Shown here piece after piece: positions 11,474-35,000 of a stretch of DNA of 35,000 nucleotides. A program made the position numbers and the translations under genes. Location of the stretch: positions 1 to 35,000 of the forward strand of contig JAFWKY010000016.1 of the NCBI GenBank assembly GCA_017514105.1, in the 5' to 3' direction. The notes beneath the pieces were generated by a model. It was given only the letters and a program-made list of their open reading frames with translations. It did not search any database and was not told the origin of the DNA. Every line of letters begins with the position of its first letter. Position 1 is the stretch's first letter. The stretch comes from Candidatus Saccharimonadota bacterium (GTDB lineage: Bacteria; Patescibacteriota; Saccharimonadia; Saccharimonadales; Saccharimonadaceae).

Positions 11474-11560
11474 TCACGCCACGCAGCGGAGGGACCAGCC
11501 GCCGACGCGGTTGCTGCGGTATGCCGGCCATACGCCACGGGCGTGAAACACGATACGCTT
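11474..11560 (-). pseudogene. FISUMP C-terminal fragment without a start (cassette E)
   Basis: On the minus strand a 28-codon open stretch lies between an upstream TAA (11561-11563) and TGA 11474-11476. It encodes GVWPAYRSNRVGGWSLRCVA, the extreme C terminus of a FISUMP domain. It matches the ends of cassettes D and F almost base for base in the frame codons, but differs at interspersed codons. No ATG, promoter or upstream domain is attached, so it is a tail only. It is convergent with dnaE and sits just left of a 52-bp promoter repeat, the same arrangement as cassette C. Confidence 0.75.
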
Positions 11561-12207: not shown

Positions 12208-13965
12208 ATGCAGGTCATACAAAAAACTAATAAACTAAATCATAAAAAACGCTCTTTCTTTGCGTCTAGGTTTTTCTTCCACCTGCTCGCCATTGCATTA
12301 CGCTTACCAAATGGCAATGGCGAACAGGAGACACAAAGACGTTTCTTTGGACGGGTCCTGCCGGCTGCTATTGTTGGTTTTGTTGTTGTTGTTCCTGCAG
12401 TTATGCTTAGTTCTAATGTTCCCGTTTCTGCTGCTGAAAGTAAACTAGATTTAACCATGTCTTCTGATATTATTTCCGTAGACATTGGCTCTGCTAATGC
12501 CAATGGTACGTTCAAGAAGTCTGCTAATAATACCATTTCTGTTACCACTGATCATTATACAGGATACACACTAAGCATTAAATCTACAGACACTTCTGCA
12601 TCTACTACTTCTCCAGCATTAAAGAACGGTAGTGATACCATGCCATCCATTACATCTTCACTCACCGAAGAACAATTCTCATCCATTAGTGCTACTAACT
12701 ATAATAACAAGTATGGCTATCTTCCAAGTAAGATTTGTACTACTGCGAATAGTTGTACTTCTAACACCTCATTCCTCCCAGCACCAACACTGACTGGTGA
12801 TATATTAGACCAGACAAGCGCAGCTAATCCATCTACTGCCAATACTTATACTATGGCCATTGGTGCTAGGATAGACCAAACTATTCCATTTGGGTCTTAT
12901 TCTAATACGTTTGAAGTACTATTAGTAGCAAATGCTATACCATACACTATAATCTACAATGATAGCGTAATTGGTAATATGCCGGTAGATGTAGATACTA
13001 CTTCTATGACTAGTAGTGTTACCATCTCTAGTAATACTCCAGTGAGGGATGGTTATACCTTTGGTGGTTGGTGTACTGTCCAAGTAGCAGATAACGAATC
13101 TTGTACTGGCACTACTTATGCAGCAGGTTCTACTTACGCATTAGACCAGACTGGCACGAATAATCTACAGCTTTATGCGATGTGGAGTGGCAGTGGTGGC
13201 GGAGGAATAGGCTTTATACAAAACTGGTCTGCTTGCGATGAAATGGAGGTAGATGATATCATTACGCTGGTGGATTCTAGAGACAACGAACGATATCGTA
13301 TAGGAAAACTTGCTGATGAAAAATGCTGGATGCTAGACAATCTACGCTTGGATCTAGCCAATGTTAGTTTGACCAAACTTCAGGGTAATACTAATGCTTC
13401 TGACCAAACTTTAGACTACCTTATCAATGGCGGTGGGACCGCGAGCGATCAATATGCCATGAGCGGCATAGAGAACTTAACACTAGGAAATAGCTACTCA
13501 AATCCACGCATCAATGCAAGCTATGTAAATGTTAAATATTCGCCTACTGGTGCAGGTTCGGGCAAGACGGGCGTCTATTATAACTATTGCGCTGCAAGTG
13601 CAGGCTCATACTGCTATGGCAATGGTACTAGTGCCGGTACTTCTTCCGGCGACACCACTGAAGATATCTGTCCGTCTGGCTGGAGAATGCCTACCGCATC
13701 TGGGGATGGTGGAGGAGAATACAATTCTCTATATATTGCGTATTCTAGCAATGCAGCTAATTTCAGGACAGCTCTCTCGTTTCCTCTCTCTGGCTTCTTC
13801 TATAATGGTTCGACGGGATATCAGAACAACAACGGCTTTTTCTGGTCCTCTTCAAGGTGCAGCAACGAAACAATGTACCTCCTTAACGGCAATTCGTCCG
13901 GTGTACAGACTCAGAATTATTTTGGTCGCTACAATGGTTATTCAGTGCGTTGTTTACTCCAGTAA
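12208..13965 (+). CDS. FISUMP-domain surface protein with InlB-type repeat
   Basis: 585 residues; GAGG upstream supports the ATG. A long basic N-terminal stretch precedes a membrane/signal segment near 49-72 ending in PVSAAE, a likely cleavage site. Residues about 75-245 form a Thr/Ser-rich beta domain that also occurs in the surface protein at 25955-26890 (both have a signal followed by repeated VTT/LSI-type strands). Residues about 248-330 match a Listeria-Bacteroides (InlB B) repeat (DGYTFGGWC...LQLYAMW). Residues about 340-585 are a FISUMP/DUF1566-like domain: LADEKCWMLDNLRLDL, ICPSGWRMPTASGDGGGEYNSL, FFWSSS and the final GYSVRCL. FISUMP folds resemble C-type-lectin-like ligand binders. 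No sorting signal is visible. The C-terminal codons are the homologous counterpart of the dispersed cassettes, but the base composition is more AT-rich. Confidence 0.85.
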   Translation: MQVIQKTNKLNHKKRSFFASRFFFHLLAIALRLPNGNGEQETQRRFFGRVLPAAIVGFVVVVPAVMLSSNVPVSAAESKLDLTMSSDIISVDIGSANANGTFKKSANNTISVTTDHYTGYTLSIKSTDTSASTTSPALKNGSDTMPSITSSLTEEQFSSISATNYNNKYGYLPSKICTTANSCTSNTSFLPAPTLTGDILDQTSAANPSTANTYTMAIGARIDQTIPFGSYSNTFEVLLVANAIPYTIIYNDSVIGNMPVDVDTTSMTSSVTISSNTPVRDGYTFGGWCTVQVADNESCTGTTYAAGSTYALDQTGTNNLQLYAMWSGSGGGGIGFIQNWSACDEMEVDDIITLVDSRDNERYRIGKLADEKCWMLDNLRLDLANVSLTKLQGNTNASDQTLDYLINGGGTASDQYAMSGIENLTLGNSYSNPRINASYVNVKYSPTGAGSGKTGVYYNYCAASAGSYCYGNGTSAGTSSGDTTEDICPSGWRMPTASGDGGGEYNSLYIAYSSNAANFRTALSFPLSGFFYNGSTGYQNNNGFFWSSSRCSNETMYLLNGNSSGVQTQNYFGRYNGYSVRCLLQ

Positions 13966-32503: not shown

Positions 32504-32794
32504 GGCCACGCACCGGACGCTAAAGCCGTACCCGCGATAGTCCCTGTGAGCCGGATACAATACGCCGGAGTACGCGCCCAGGTCGTAAGCGCCGGAACTA
32601 CTATACGACGTAGCGGACCAGTAGTCCAGCTCAGTAGCAGTGCTGTTGTAATCTGCCGACCACAGGTAGCCCGCGCGAGTAAAGTAGAGTGGATGAGTAC
32701 TAAGTTTATACCAACCATTAGTTTGATAGCCAACATTAATTGGGTCACTAGAGCCAGAGTCTGTGCCATTGGCGACACCGGCGGTATTTTTAAT
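32504..32794 (-). pseudogene. FISUMP C-terminal cassette A (no start codon)
   Basis: On the minus strand an open stretch begins directly after TAA (32795-32797) and encodes NTAGVANGTDSGSSDPINV, then GWYKLSTHPLYFTRAGY, then a variable tail ending GYGFSVRCVA. The first half is nearly identical in DNA to cassettes B and C. The second half (about 32504-32680) differs at many codons. There is no ATG, signal peptide or N-terminal domain, and the frame has no stop after RCVA until deep inside pth. It is either a silent donor or a decayed gene end. Confidence 0.7.
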
Positions 32795-32842
32795 TTATAA
32801 CCAACGCTATAGAAACTAGCAATTGCTGTATTACATTAAACC

Positions 32843-33487
32843 TCAATACTTTATCTGTGCACATATCACCACGCAGCGGAGGGATCTTCCGGCGTAGCGG
32901 TAGCTGCGACCCGCCGGCCATACGTCACCGGAACCGAAGTACAGGCTGTAAGTCTGCATTGAGTCAACAGCAGTACTAGACCAGTAGAGGGCGACCCCGG
33001 TAAAGTAGTAAAACGTGGAGCCACCCACGTCGCCGGAAAGTACAAAGTAGTAAGGATTAGTATTAATGAGCGTATAGCCATTAAGAGTGTAGGTAGTATC
33101 GGTAGAGCCGCTAGTGTCTGTGCCGGTGGTGAGGATGAAGAAATCACCTGCTAACCATAAAGTCTGTAAATGGTATATTGGTACACAACCCACCACGCAG
33201 CGGACGCTAAAGCCGTACGCACGATTGCTCCTGTCCGCCGGGTACAACCCACCGGAGTTCGCGCTCAGGTAGTAAGCGCCCGCGCCATCATACGACGTAG
33301 CGGACCAGTAGTACAGGTGAGTAGTAGTGTTGTAGTAATCTGCTGTCCCCAGGCCGCCCGCGCGAGTAAAGTAGAGTGGATGAGTACTAAGTTTATACCA
33401 ACCATTAGTTTGATAACCAACATTAGTTGGGTCACTAGAGCCAATGTCTGTGTCGTTGGCGACGCCGGCGGTATCTTTATTAACCAT
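32843..33487 (-). CDS. Double FISUMP-tail ORF (cassettes B and D fused in frame)
   Basis: 214 residues from ATG 33487 (MVNKDTAGVAND); the open frame can extend to a TTG at 33532 inside the preceding gene. Cassette B (to about 33190) ends in AYGFSVRCVV. It is followed in frame by cassette D (about 33165-32860), which ends in RSYRYAGRSLRCVV and then a short tail and stop. Both are C-terminal FISUMP halves with the typical YYWSATSY or LYWSSTA core. No signal peptide is present, so export is doubtful. AGGC near the ATG is a weak ribosome site. Translation could be coupled to the helical-protein gene, which ends 20 nt before the ATG. It could be a working cytoplasmic protein or a silent store of tails. 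Confidence 0.55.
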   Translation of the reverse strand: MVNKDTAGVANDTDIGSSDPTNVGYQTNGWYKLSTHPLYFTRAGGLGTADYYNTTTHLYYWSATSYDGAGAYYLSANSGGLYPADRSNRAYGFSVRCVVGCVPIYHLQTLWLAGDFFILTTGTDTSGSTDTTYTLNGYTLINTNPYYFVLSGDVGGSTFYYFTGVALYWSSTAVDSMQTYSLYFGSGDVWPAGRSYRYAGRSLRCVVICAQIKY

Positions 33488-33506
33488 TATGCCTAAAACG
33501 CCAATA

Positions 33507-33857
33507 TCACCGCCTAGGTTGAAGTTGCTCAATCATCGTAAATCCGTCATAATACTTTTGCATTTTGGCGGGGTCAGTGTGCCAAGAATTGTTATTGAAA
33601 AAATAATCGCAAAACTCTTCACGAGCGATTAAAACTTCACGCAGGCGCGGAAAATTGTCACGATTCGCCTCTATCGTATAGTCAAAAAGTTCCAGTGCGC
33701 GATCAATTGCGGCGTCAGCACGAGCAGTTTTGCCCTTCGCGGACCATTTAAGAGAGCGGGAAACTTCGCTACCGATATTGCCCATTTGGTAAGTTATCGG
33801 GTGGTCAGCCCAAGTTTTGCGAACGGATTCATCGTGGATATATTTCAAATCAGCCAT
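33507..33857 (-). CDS. Conserved helical protein of unknown function
   Basis: 116 residues, predicted almost wholly alpha-helical: WADHPITYQMGNIGSEVSRSL, then ARADAAIDRALELFDYTIEA, then LREVLIAREEFCDYFF. The GNIGSEVSR and RALELFDYTI blocks look like a conserved family of small proteins of unknown role. The start overlaps the end of the DUF5674 gene by 13 nt, so the two form an operon. Its size and four-helix look recall accessory proteins of diversity-generating retroelements (Avd) only in general shape; I see no sequence match. Confidence 0.75.
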   Translation of the reverse strand: MADLKYIHDESVRKTWADHPITYQMGNIGSEVSRSLKWSAKGKTARADAAIDRALELFDYTIEANRDNFPRLREVLIAREEFCDYFFNNNSWHTDPAKMQKYYDGFTMIEQLQPRR

Positions 33858-34189
33858 TTTCTGACAACTTGTTTAATTTTTTCGCGGATGGCCGGGTCTT
33901 CTACTGAACGACTACGGTTGTTTTGAGAAGGACGAATATTAATCATGGAATCAAACTCAACCATATCGTCTAGGTCGTCTTCGTCAAGATATAAGTTGAT
34001 ACCCCATAGATCTGCCTGGTTGGAGCCGTTTTCGATCAATAGTTGTTCGCAGTCGTAGTGCATCGGCGAATCCACGGCGAGAAGTTCGCGTTTGATATCC
34101 ACAACACCTTTAATAGTGTTTTCGTCAATAAAATTCGTTGAAGATTTAATTAAATCAGGTTTCGTGGTGGGATTATCTAGAATTCTCAT
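33845..34189 (-). CDS. DUF5674 family protein
   Basis: 114 residues. The block CEQLLIENGSNQADLWGINLYLDE...MVEFDSMINIRPSQNNRSRSVEDPAIREKIKQVVRKWL matches what I know of DUF5674, a family common in CPR bacteria. The function is unknown. The start ATG is 7 nt after a minus-strand TATAAT (34197-34202). The upstream open frame of cassette C happens to be in the same frame and runs through this promoter, but the promoter and family length support the shorter start. Confidence 0.85.
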   Translation of the reverse strand: MRILDNPTTKPDLIKSSTNFIDENTIKGVVDIKRELLAVDSPMHYDCEQLLIENGSNQADLWGINLYLDEDDLDDMVEFDSMINIRPSQNNRSRSVEDPAIREKIKQVVRKWLI

Positions 34190-34196
34190 ACTGTAT

Positions 34197-34202
34197 ATTA
34201 TA
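34197..34202 (-). promoter_or_regulatory. Leaderless -10 box of the DUF5674 gene
   Basis: TATAAT on the minus strand ends 7 nt before the ATG at 34189. It lies inside the open frame that continues from cassette C. Confidence 0.75.
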
Positions 34203-34234
34203 ATACAGAATAATAGTTTTTGGTACGGAACAGG

Positions 34235-34516
34235 TGCCACGCACCGGACGCTAAAGCCGACCGCGCGATCGCTGTTGCTCGCCGGGTACAATACACCGGA
34301 GTCCGCGTACAGGCGGTAAGCGTTCCAGCTACTATACGACGTAGCGGACCAGTAGTACAGGGCGGTAGCAGTGCCCCCGTACTCACCTGACCACAGGTAG
34401 CCCGCGCGAGTAAAGTAGAGTGGATGAGTACTAAGTTTATTCCAACCATTAGTTTGATAACCAACATTAATTGCGCCACCAGAGCCAGAGTCTGTGCCGT
34501 TGGCGACGCCGAGGAA
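34235..34516 (-). pseudogene. FISUMP C-terminal cassette C (no start codon)
   Basis: It begins right after an in-frame TAA (34517-34519): GVANGTDSGSGGAINV, then GWNKLSTHPLYFTRAGY, then the variable tail ending AVGFSVRCVA. The upstream half is almost identical to A and B. The tail (about 34235-34410) differs from both at many codons. There is no start codon. To its right lies the second copy of the 52-bp promoter repeat, as with cassette E. The open frame continues through the DUF5674 promoter into that gene. Confidence 0.7.
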
Positions 34517-34916: not shown

Positions 34917-35000
34917 TTAATGATATACCATAAAAGATTTGTAGTCAACTGTTGCCACGCAGCGGAGGGACCTTCCGCTGCCGCGGTTGTAGCGGTCCGC
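34917..35000 (-). CDS. 3' end of a FISUMP protein or cassette F (partial)
   Basis: The frame enters from the right edge and encodes ADRYNRGSGRSLRCVAT, then 10 more residues to TAA 34917-34919. It matches the ends of cassettes D and E, with differences at interspersed codons. Whether a full gene lies beyond the window cannot be seen. Confidence 0.65.
   Translation of the reverse strand, partial: ADRYNRGSGRSLRCVATVDYKSFMVYH

Follow-up and report, generated by a model that had tools for sequence, protein, structure and literature searches.

The window analysed here (35,000 nt) is the entire contig C11 of a gut Saccharibacterium (G000), whose assembly comprises 498 kb in 17 contigs and is 75.6% complete. 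Its final 2.5 kb carries, on the minus strand, four cassettes (A, B, B' and C) and the truncated end of a fifth. Cassettes A (34238-34515), B (33194-33470) and C (32507-32783) are the three units with hypervariable tails that a first-pass annotation of this DNA had described, and all three are indeed present. They form one family (type 1) of about 277 nt each, corresponding to a FISUMP C-terminal half that ends in GFSVRCV. B' (32870-33144) belongs to a second family (type 2) of about 275 nt that ends in GRSLRCV. The first-pass annotation overlooked B', which lies between B and C, as well as a type-2-like cassette of which the contig end leaves only the 3' end (D, 34956-35000, minus strand) and a 3'-end remnant of a type-2 cassette (11479-11541, minus strand; 79% identity over 63 nt) that has a DNA polymerase III alpha gene on one side and a FISUMP gene on the other. 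Over 287 nt the cassette copies share about 83-86% identity, far above chance. Type-1 and type-2 cassettes are separated by a spacer of 49-50 nt (33145-33193, minus strand) that can be recognised in arrays on C2, C8, C11 and C14 alike. A and C lack a start codon and have in-frame stops 4 nt and 14 nt upstream, respectively, and the in-frame ATG 17 nt upstream of B comes without a Shine-Dalgarno-like site.

Two ordinary small genes occupy the gap between A and B, a DUF5674 gene (33845-34189) and a 116-aa gene without known family (33507-33857), both on the minus strand. Beyond C, the opposite strand carries a peptidyl-tRNA hydrolase gene and a PhoH-type gene. A full-length FISUMP gene of a third family lies at 12208-13965 (plus strand), and its tail has hypervariable-looking NNC-type codons in a conserved frame. 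FISUMP gene tails on C2, C4, C6 and C13 also appear to have such codons in a conserved frame; a template was not found for any of these genes.

All contigs of G000 were read, and further copies were located by blastn and nhmmer. About 15 type-1 and about 14 type-2 copies are found on C2, C3, C5, C8, C9, C11 and C14, nearly all of them no more than about 2.5 kb from a contig end. They occur in both orientations, scattered among unrelated genes, in small arrays where types 1 and 2 alternate with recognisable spacers of about 50 nt, and we estimate that they take up about 1.5-2% of this half-megabase genome. The genome also holds a template, a variable repeat (VR) beside the template, a type-2 gene on C15 that is full-length, and further full-length genes that are more distant; a full-length type-1 gene and a type-1 template are both absent from the 75%-complete assembly. 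Where cassettes stand tail to tail, their spacer (cctataaatta.gagaatt...) is conserved in two G000 arrays (L030 409-507 and L031 140-256).

The tails of A, B and C had been described as varying at bases 1 and 2 of a codon while the third base stays C or T, and this is seen in 20 of their codons. In 18 further variable codons the third base changes as well, so that the three copies taken by themselves are suggestive only. The pattern becomes very clear across the 13 full type-1 copies of the genome, where the entropy of about 13 NNC codons is close to its maximum at bases 1 and 2, while base 3 has hardly any. These saturated codons adjoin codons that are frozen at all three bases, synonymous sites included. 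This is the pattern that a template with AAC codons would leave.

The first-pass annotation had proposed that the cassettes are variable repeats of a diversity-generating retroelement (DGR), or copies of them, and that a DGR-type reverse transcriptase (RT) and a template with A at the variable positions should be sought. Both were found in the same genome, the template for type 2 only. The RT (413 aa; C16:28983-30224) carries YVDD and IGNLTSQ motifs. Its best PDB match is 8ub7 (E=2.4e-26), which we take to be the RT of the Bordetella phage BPP-1 DGR, and it matches the PHROG 1423 reverse transcriptase with E=1.2e-76. The (I/V/L)GxxxSQ motif is a mark of DGR RTs (PMC3521204). Pfam RVT_1 does not match this RT, and an RVT_1 search of the genome was empty; the miss is misleading, because the RT is too divergent for that model. 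The template repeat (C16:30290-30479) lies on the strand opposite to the RT, 66 nt past the RT stop, and nearly every codon in it that varies among the copies reads AAC or AAT. An ORF of 268-309 aa, a candidate accessory protein, precedes the RT at a conserved position in G000 and in two relatives (G134 and G207); the G000 ORF (up to 309 aa) has no Pfam, NCBIfam, PADLOC or PHROG family match, and Rfam has no match at the DGR locus. In G000 the 3' flank of the VR forms a 14-bp stem (dG -18.8) that is absent after the template (dG -7.8), an asymmetry not seen overall in 41 relatives (P=0.30). Directly upstream of the accessory ORF and RT is a nucleotidyltransferase (Polbeta)/HepT-like pair (L058 7353-7971, plus strand), a typical toxin-antitoxin arrangement.

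Comparison with the template reveals strong adenine specificity. The VR adjoining the RT has changed at 16 of 26 A and 0 of 96 other sites, and the VR of the C15 gene at 14 of 39 A and 1 of 144 other sites; judged by these counts, both are almost perfect A-only derivatives of the template. B' has changed at 19/39 A and 18/146 other sites. Pooled type-2 copies, these two VRs included, have changed at 233/558 A (42%) and 131/2086 other sites (6.3%), with P down to 1e-13 for individual copies. Non-A substitutions as frequent as the others, which the first-pass annotation held would refute its proposal, were thus not found, A sites being changed about 6.6 times more often. The cassettes differ from the template at about 5-8% of non-A sites and so fit the expectation that a VR differs only at A in part (pooled 42% versus 6%). 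A DGR origin of the cassettes is almost certain on these patterns. For A, B and C themselves the proposal is supported by the codon pattern and by the two-DGR relative G207 described below. The cassettes appear to be silent copies of variable repeats and not expressed ones, so that of the original wording it is the half 'or copies of them' that fits.

Silence is indicated by the upstream sequence. Among 94 copies from three species, 48 contain no ATG, GTG or TTG in the stretch from the upstream in-frame stop to the cassette; a start with a Shine-Dalgarno-like sequence is seen in only 5, including the real C15 gene. At the 5' border, identity between copies leaps from about 0.4-0.5 to 0.9-1.0, and it drops equally sharply after the RC(V/L) codons; in some places one unit runs straight into the next, and apart from that the flanks show no relation to one another. 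The 5' arm of the cassettes (30 to about 100 nt) derives from target-gene sequence upstream of the template homology, so the cassettes cannot be plain cDNA copies made from the template. Each cassette is thus homologous to the expressed gene on either side of its variable part, through the 5' arm and through the 3' end RC(V/L)A. The cassettes end right after the RC codons, mostly without the 3' flank common to the template and expressed VR, and their flanks are less structured.

As to maintenance and INDEPENDENCE, pairwise agreement at A sites is 0.404 against 0.404 expected in G134 and 0.346 against 0.340 in G000 type 2, so that A-site states are pairwise independent between copies, while constant sites are 87-92% identical between cassette pairs of these two sets. 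Assuming a 60% transition share, the distinct non-A changes in 96 copies include 1 stop against 17.2 expected (Poisson P ~6e-7), and singletons divide into 102 synonymous, 103 nonsynonymous and 1 stop against 70.7, 125.5 and 9.8 expected (synonymous excess P=4e-5); these P values are uncorrected for several tests, and the copies share ancestry and are hence non-independent. Hardly any indels occur except multiples of three. Some of the changes may predate capture, and the figures therefore point to constraint somewhere in the history of the sequences without proving it on the silent copy. We consider it probable from these features that the cassettes are silent and maintained.

Relatives were selected by RT similarity, after a first contig scan with a single RT as query in which no relative matched. 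Template/VR pairs with A-biased mismatches are found at 62 of 80 related RT loci in public Saccharibacteria genomes, and in 59 of the 62 the template lies directly downstream of the RT and convergent with it, as in G000; the G000 DGR itself is therefore standard for the lineage. The silent-cassette anatomy is clear in three species, each represented by one genome, all or nearly all metagenome-derived, with arrays at many contig ends and, in G207 and G134, also inside contigs. G134, a sheep jejunum MAG, has its template on C2 and the RT and accessory ORF separately on C8. Its roughly 32 VR-like copies have changed at 701/1712 A and 367/4707 other sites, and one of them (C5:480-723) at 23/55 A and 0/189 other sites. 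About 14 cassettes lie within G134 C7:16000-28500 (L095), where short inverted copies of another target-gene segment (gene positions 797-843) beside cassette 5' borders suggest inversions that took place repeatedly or head-to-head insertions.

G207 has two complete DGRs, each with RT, accessory ORF and template, and two cassette families of about 26 and about 19 copies that are interleaved as in G000. Their changes fall on 498/1341 A versus 253/3457 other sites (including a few copies of a diverged third family) and on 352/974 versus 139/2163. This layout is the best argument that G000 type 1 had a template of its own. The third family, with the arm GCCACCGGAGATAAGGGTTTTACTGCTAGGCCCC, is 67-76% identical to template a and interleaved with the other two (L276-L282). 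About six such cassette copies are present in G216. Further RT-bearing genomes, among them G089, G182 and G201, contain only normal genes and a template/VR pair, and the three genomes of the genus that lack the RT (G001, G104 and G150) have no short tails. Short FISUMP pieces in G221 were rejected as cassettes, being genes cut at contig ends, and G158 was not counted as a further case, its tails failing to pair with its template by A-bias. G158 (59% complete; L192-L200) has more than 12 tail-only FISUMP cassettes, about 71-90% alike, that match no known template.

Some cassettes appear to be mosaics. Two G207 cassettes have 46 polymorphic sites in common over template positions 93-178 and differ at upstream variable codons, and another G207 pair has 29 in common at positions 9-72; the maxima under a shuffled null are about 17 and about 16.6, respectively. 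The 46-site pair has its 3' part in common, an outcome not expected of retrohoming that begins at the 3' end. Similarly, the 5' arm of cassette C14:2258 is identical to that of the expressed C15 gene (0/81), whereas every other cassette has at least 3 differences, and its VR differs from the C15 VR at 28/178 positions, a pattern that separate movement of arm and VR would produce. The genome encodes RecA. These few mosaics suggest recombination, and they could also come from partial retrohoming with repeated capture. No cassette-diagnostic tract was seen in the expressed VRs examined, mosaics being found only between cassettes, and the expressed VRs look like direct template products.

The C15 gene encodes an N terminus that is signal-peptide-like by eye and a C-terminal FISUMP domain. 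A structural model of this domain from 42 homologues reached pLDDT 77 and pTM 0.78; a first model, from 15 sequences, was useless (pLDDT 39). The model aligned best, at modest scores, with the C-terminal domain of Bd2740 (Z 5.4, rmsd 2.9, 76 aligned) and that of Legionella Lcl (Z 5.1, rmsd 2.1, 76 aligned), and with the LOX-1 lectin at Z 3.4. Foldseek gave no significant match for it in the PDB or among viral models. The predicted structure is compatible with a C-type-lectin-like fold, the usual DGR target, though short of proof.

Taken together, we favour, with a probability of roughly 0.55, the reading that the cassettes are an archive of retroelement-made variants that feeds expressed FISUMP genes by recombination, much as vls and tprK donors do. 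The saccharibacterial DGR would make variants in the variable C-terminal tail of an expressed FISUMP surface gene; diversified variants would be copied into silent cassettes (capture after diversification) and kept there; and the cassettes would serve as donors, RecA-type recombination through the conserved 5' arm and 3' end returning them to the expressed gene, which would both store and reshuffle retroelement-made diversity. A donor repertoire is suggested because it accounts at once for the silence, the preserved frame, the conserved arms, the mosaics and the independence of VR states. The cassette-to-gene step is one that we infer, and we give the donor role itself slightly less than an even chance. 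A two-stage system, in which the retroelement writes random variants into an expressed surface gene, the cell banks them silent and recombination reads back and shuffles them, is a tentative and somewhat doubtful proposition. The expressed VRs show no cassette-derived tract, and we therefore do not class this as a vls/pilS/tprK-type system.

The main rival holds that the cassettes are functionless by-products in decay, the 3' ends of DGR target genes that duplication has scattered. Usable starts are missing in most copies, non-A divergence has reached 6-8%, both orientations occur between unrelated genes and transfer into expressed genes was not observed, all of which speaks for this explanation. 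Against it stand the single stop where 17.2 were expected, the scarcity of indels that are not multiples of three, the synonymous singleton excess (P=4e-5), the sharp, reproducible borders with directly abutting units, the recurrence in several species and the high price of about 1.5-2% of a reduced half-megabase genome. The missing stops and uniform borders are hard to square with such a graveyard of duplicated gene ends, which we regard as unlikely.

Independence of A-site states between copies would also follow if every cassette, expressed or not, were a current target of mutagenic retrohoming, in a DGR with dozens of targets, and multi-VR DGRs are known (PMC6642488). Retrohoming, however, resets non-A sites to the template, as in the expressed VRs (0/96, 1/144 and 0/189), whereas the cassettes differ at 5-8% of them, end after the RC codons mostly without the template/VR 3' flank and have less structured flanks, which makes this improbable. 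Both orientations, a conserved 5' border and 3'-terminal segments without starts recall a shufflon, with a recombinase switching cassettes onto an expressed 5' gene part by inversion. Yet the 75%-complete G000 assembly has one tyrosine recombinase, which also occurs in relatives, and no serine recombinase was found in it; no short inverted crossover site was noticed and the full-length genes are not adjacent to the arrays, so that inversion of this kind is very improbable. The numerous and variable FISUMP genes of the lineage might, finally, be ordinary paralogues under diversifying selection without a retroelement. The adenine bias measured against a real template (P down to 1e-13 for single copies), the adjoining RT and synonymous sites frozen beside saturated NNC codons leave this next to no probability, and ordinary paralogue drift is rejected by the A-specificity.

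The favoured reading combines features of known systems. As in the BPP-1 DGR and Patescibacteria 'DGR clade 2' (Roux et al., 2021, PMC8144416), there is an RT with YxDD and IGxxxSQ motifs, a template repeat, A-specific substitution, a VR at a surface-protein C terminus and, in G000, a hairpin after the VR and not after the template. Unlike those DGRs (PMC8144416), the template here is convergent with the RT, and about 30 silent, 5'-truncated, in-frame VR copies in two interleaved families lie elsewhere in the genome; the survey by its own statement was unable to detect remote targets (PMC8144416). Like multi-VR DGRs (Yan et al., 2019, PMC6642488), the system has one template and many VR copies; in the sections of that paper concerned with them, many-copy examples lie inside target-protein ORFs or in several target genes, and the silent bounded cassettes with conserved arms present here are not among the examples described there. 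Borrelia vls (PMC11499132) likewise has arrayed promoterless in-frame cassettes with variable cores amid constant stretches and a frame that is generally kept; there, gene conversion proceeds from cassettes and is retroelement-free, whereas here the variation is almost certainly DGR-made and cassette-to-gene conversion is putative. Treponema tprK (PMC10063172) and Neisseria pilS (PMC3899283) resemble it in their silent partial copies, from which an expressed surface-protein gene receives its variable regions. Their donor role is established, whereas the one proposed here is conjectural. To our knowledge, no retroelement is involved in tprK or pilS, and DGRs and silent-cassette diversification have so far been described only separately; a search of an open-access library found no publication on DGR-made silent cassettes.

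If the favoured reading is true, DGRs and silent-cassette gene conversion, two separate answers to surface-protein diversity, would be joined here, and DGR output could be kept from one round to the next instead of being overwritten. The assembly breaks at such loci in these Saccharibacteria would also be explained, as would the failure of surveys confined to the RT neighbourhood to find the cassettes. With the two-stage system, an episymbiotic bacterium would in effect carry a heritable stock of receptor variants made in advance. Since Saccharibacteria spend their lives attached to other bacteria, banked surface binding domains could bear on host choice.

Other repeats were noted in G000. The ends of C3, C4, C13 and C16 have 106-141 identical bases in common (L031 15429-15534, L032 1-141, L041 1-141 and L044 1-130), which on C4 and C13 are the beginning of large FISUMP genes (MKVIQYIKINHLFNRVAFASG...); several surface genes thus seem to have identical 5' ends. 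A separate sequence of 71-76 nt occurs at seven sites with 97-100% identity (C2:3795, C4:5694, C10:23261, C10:29970, C10:109151, C17:8914 and C17:22358).
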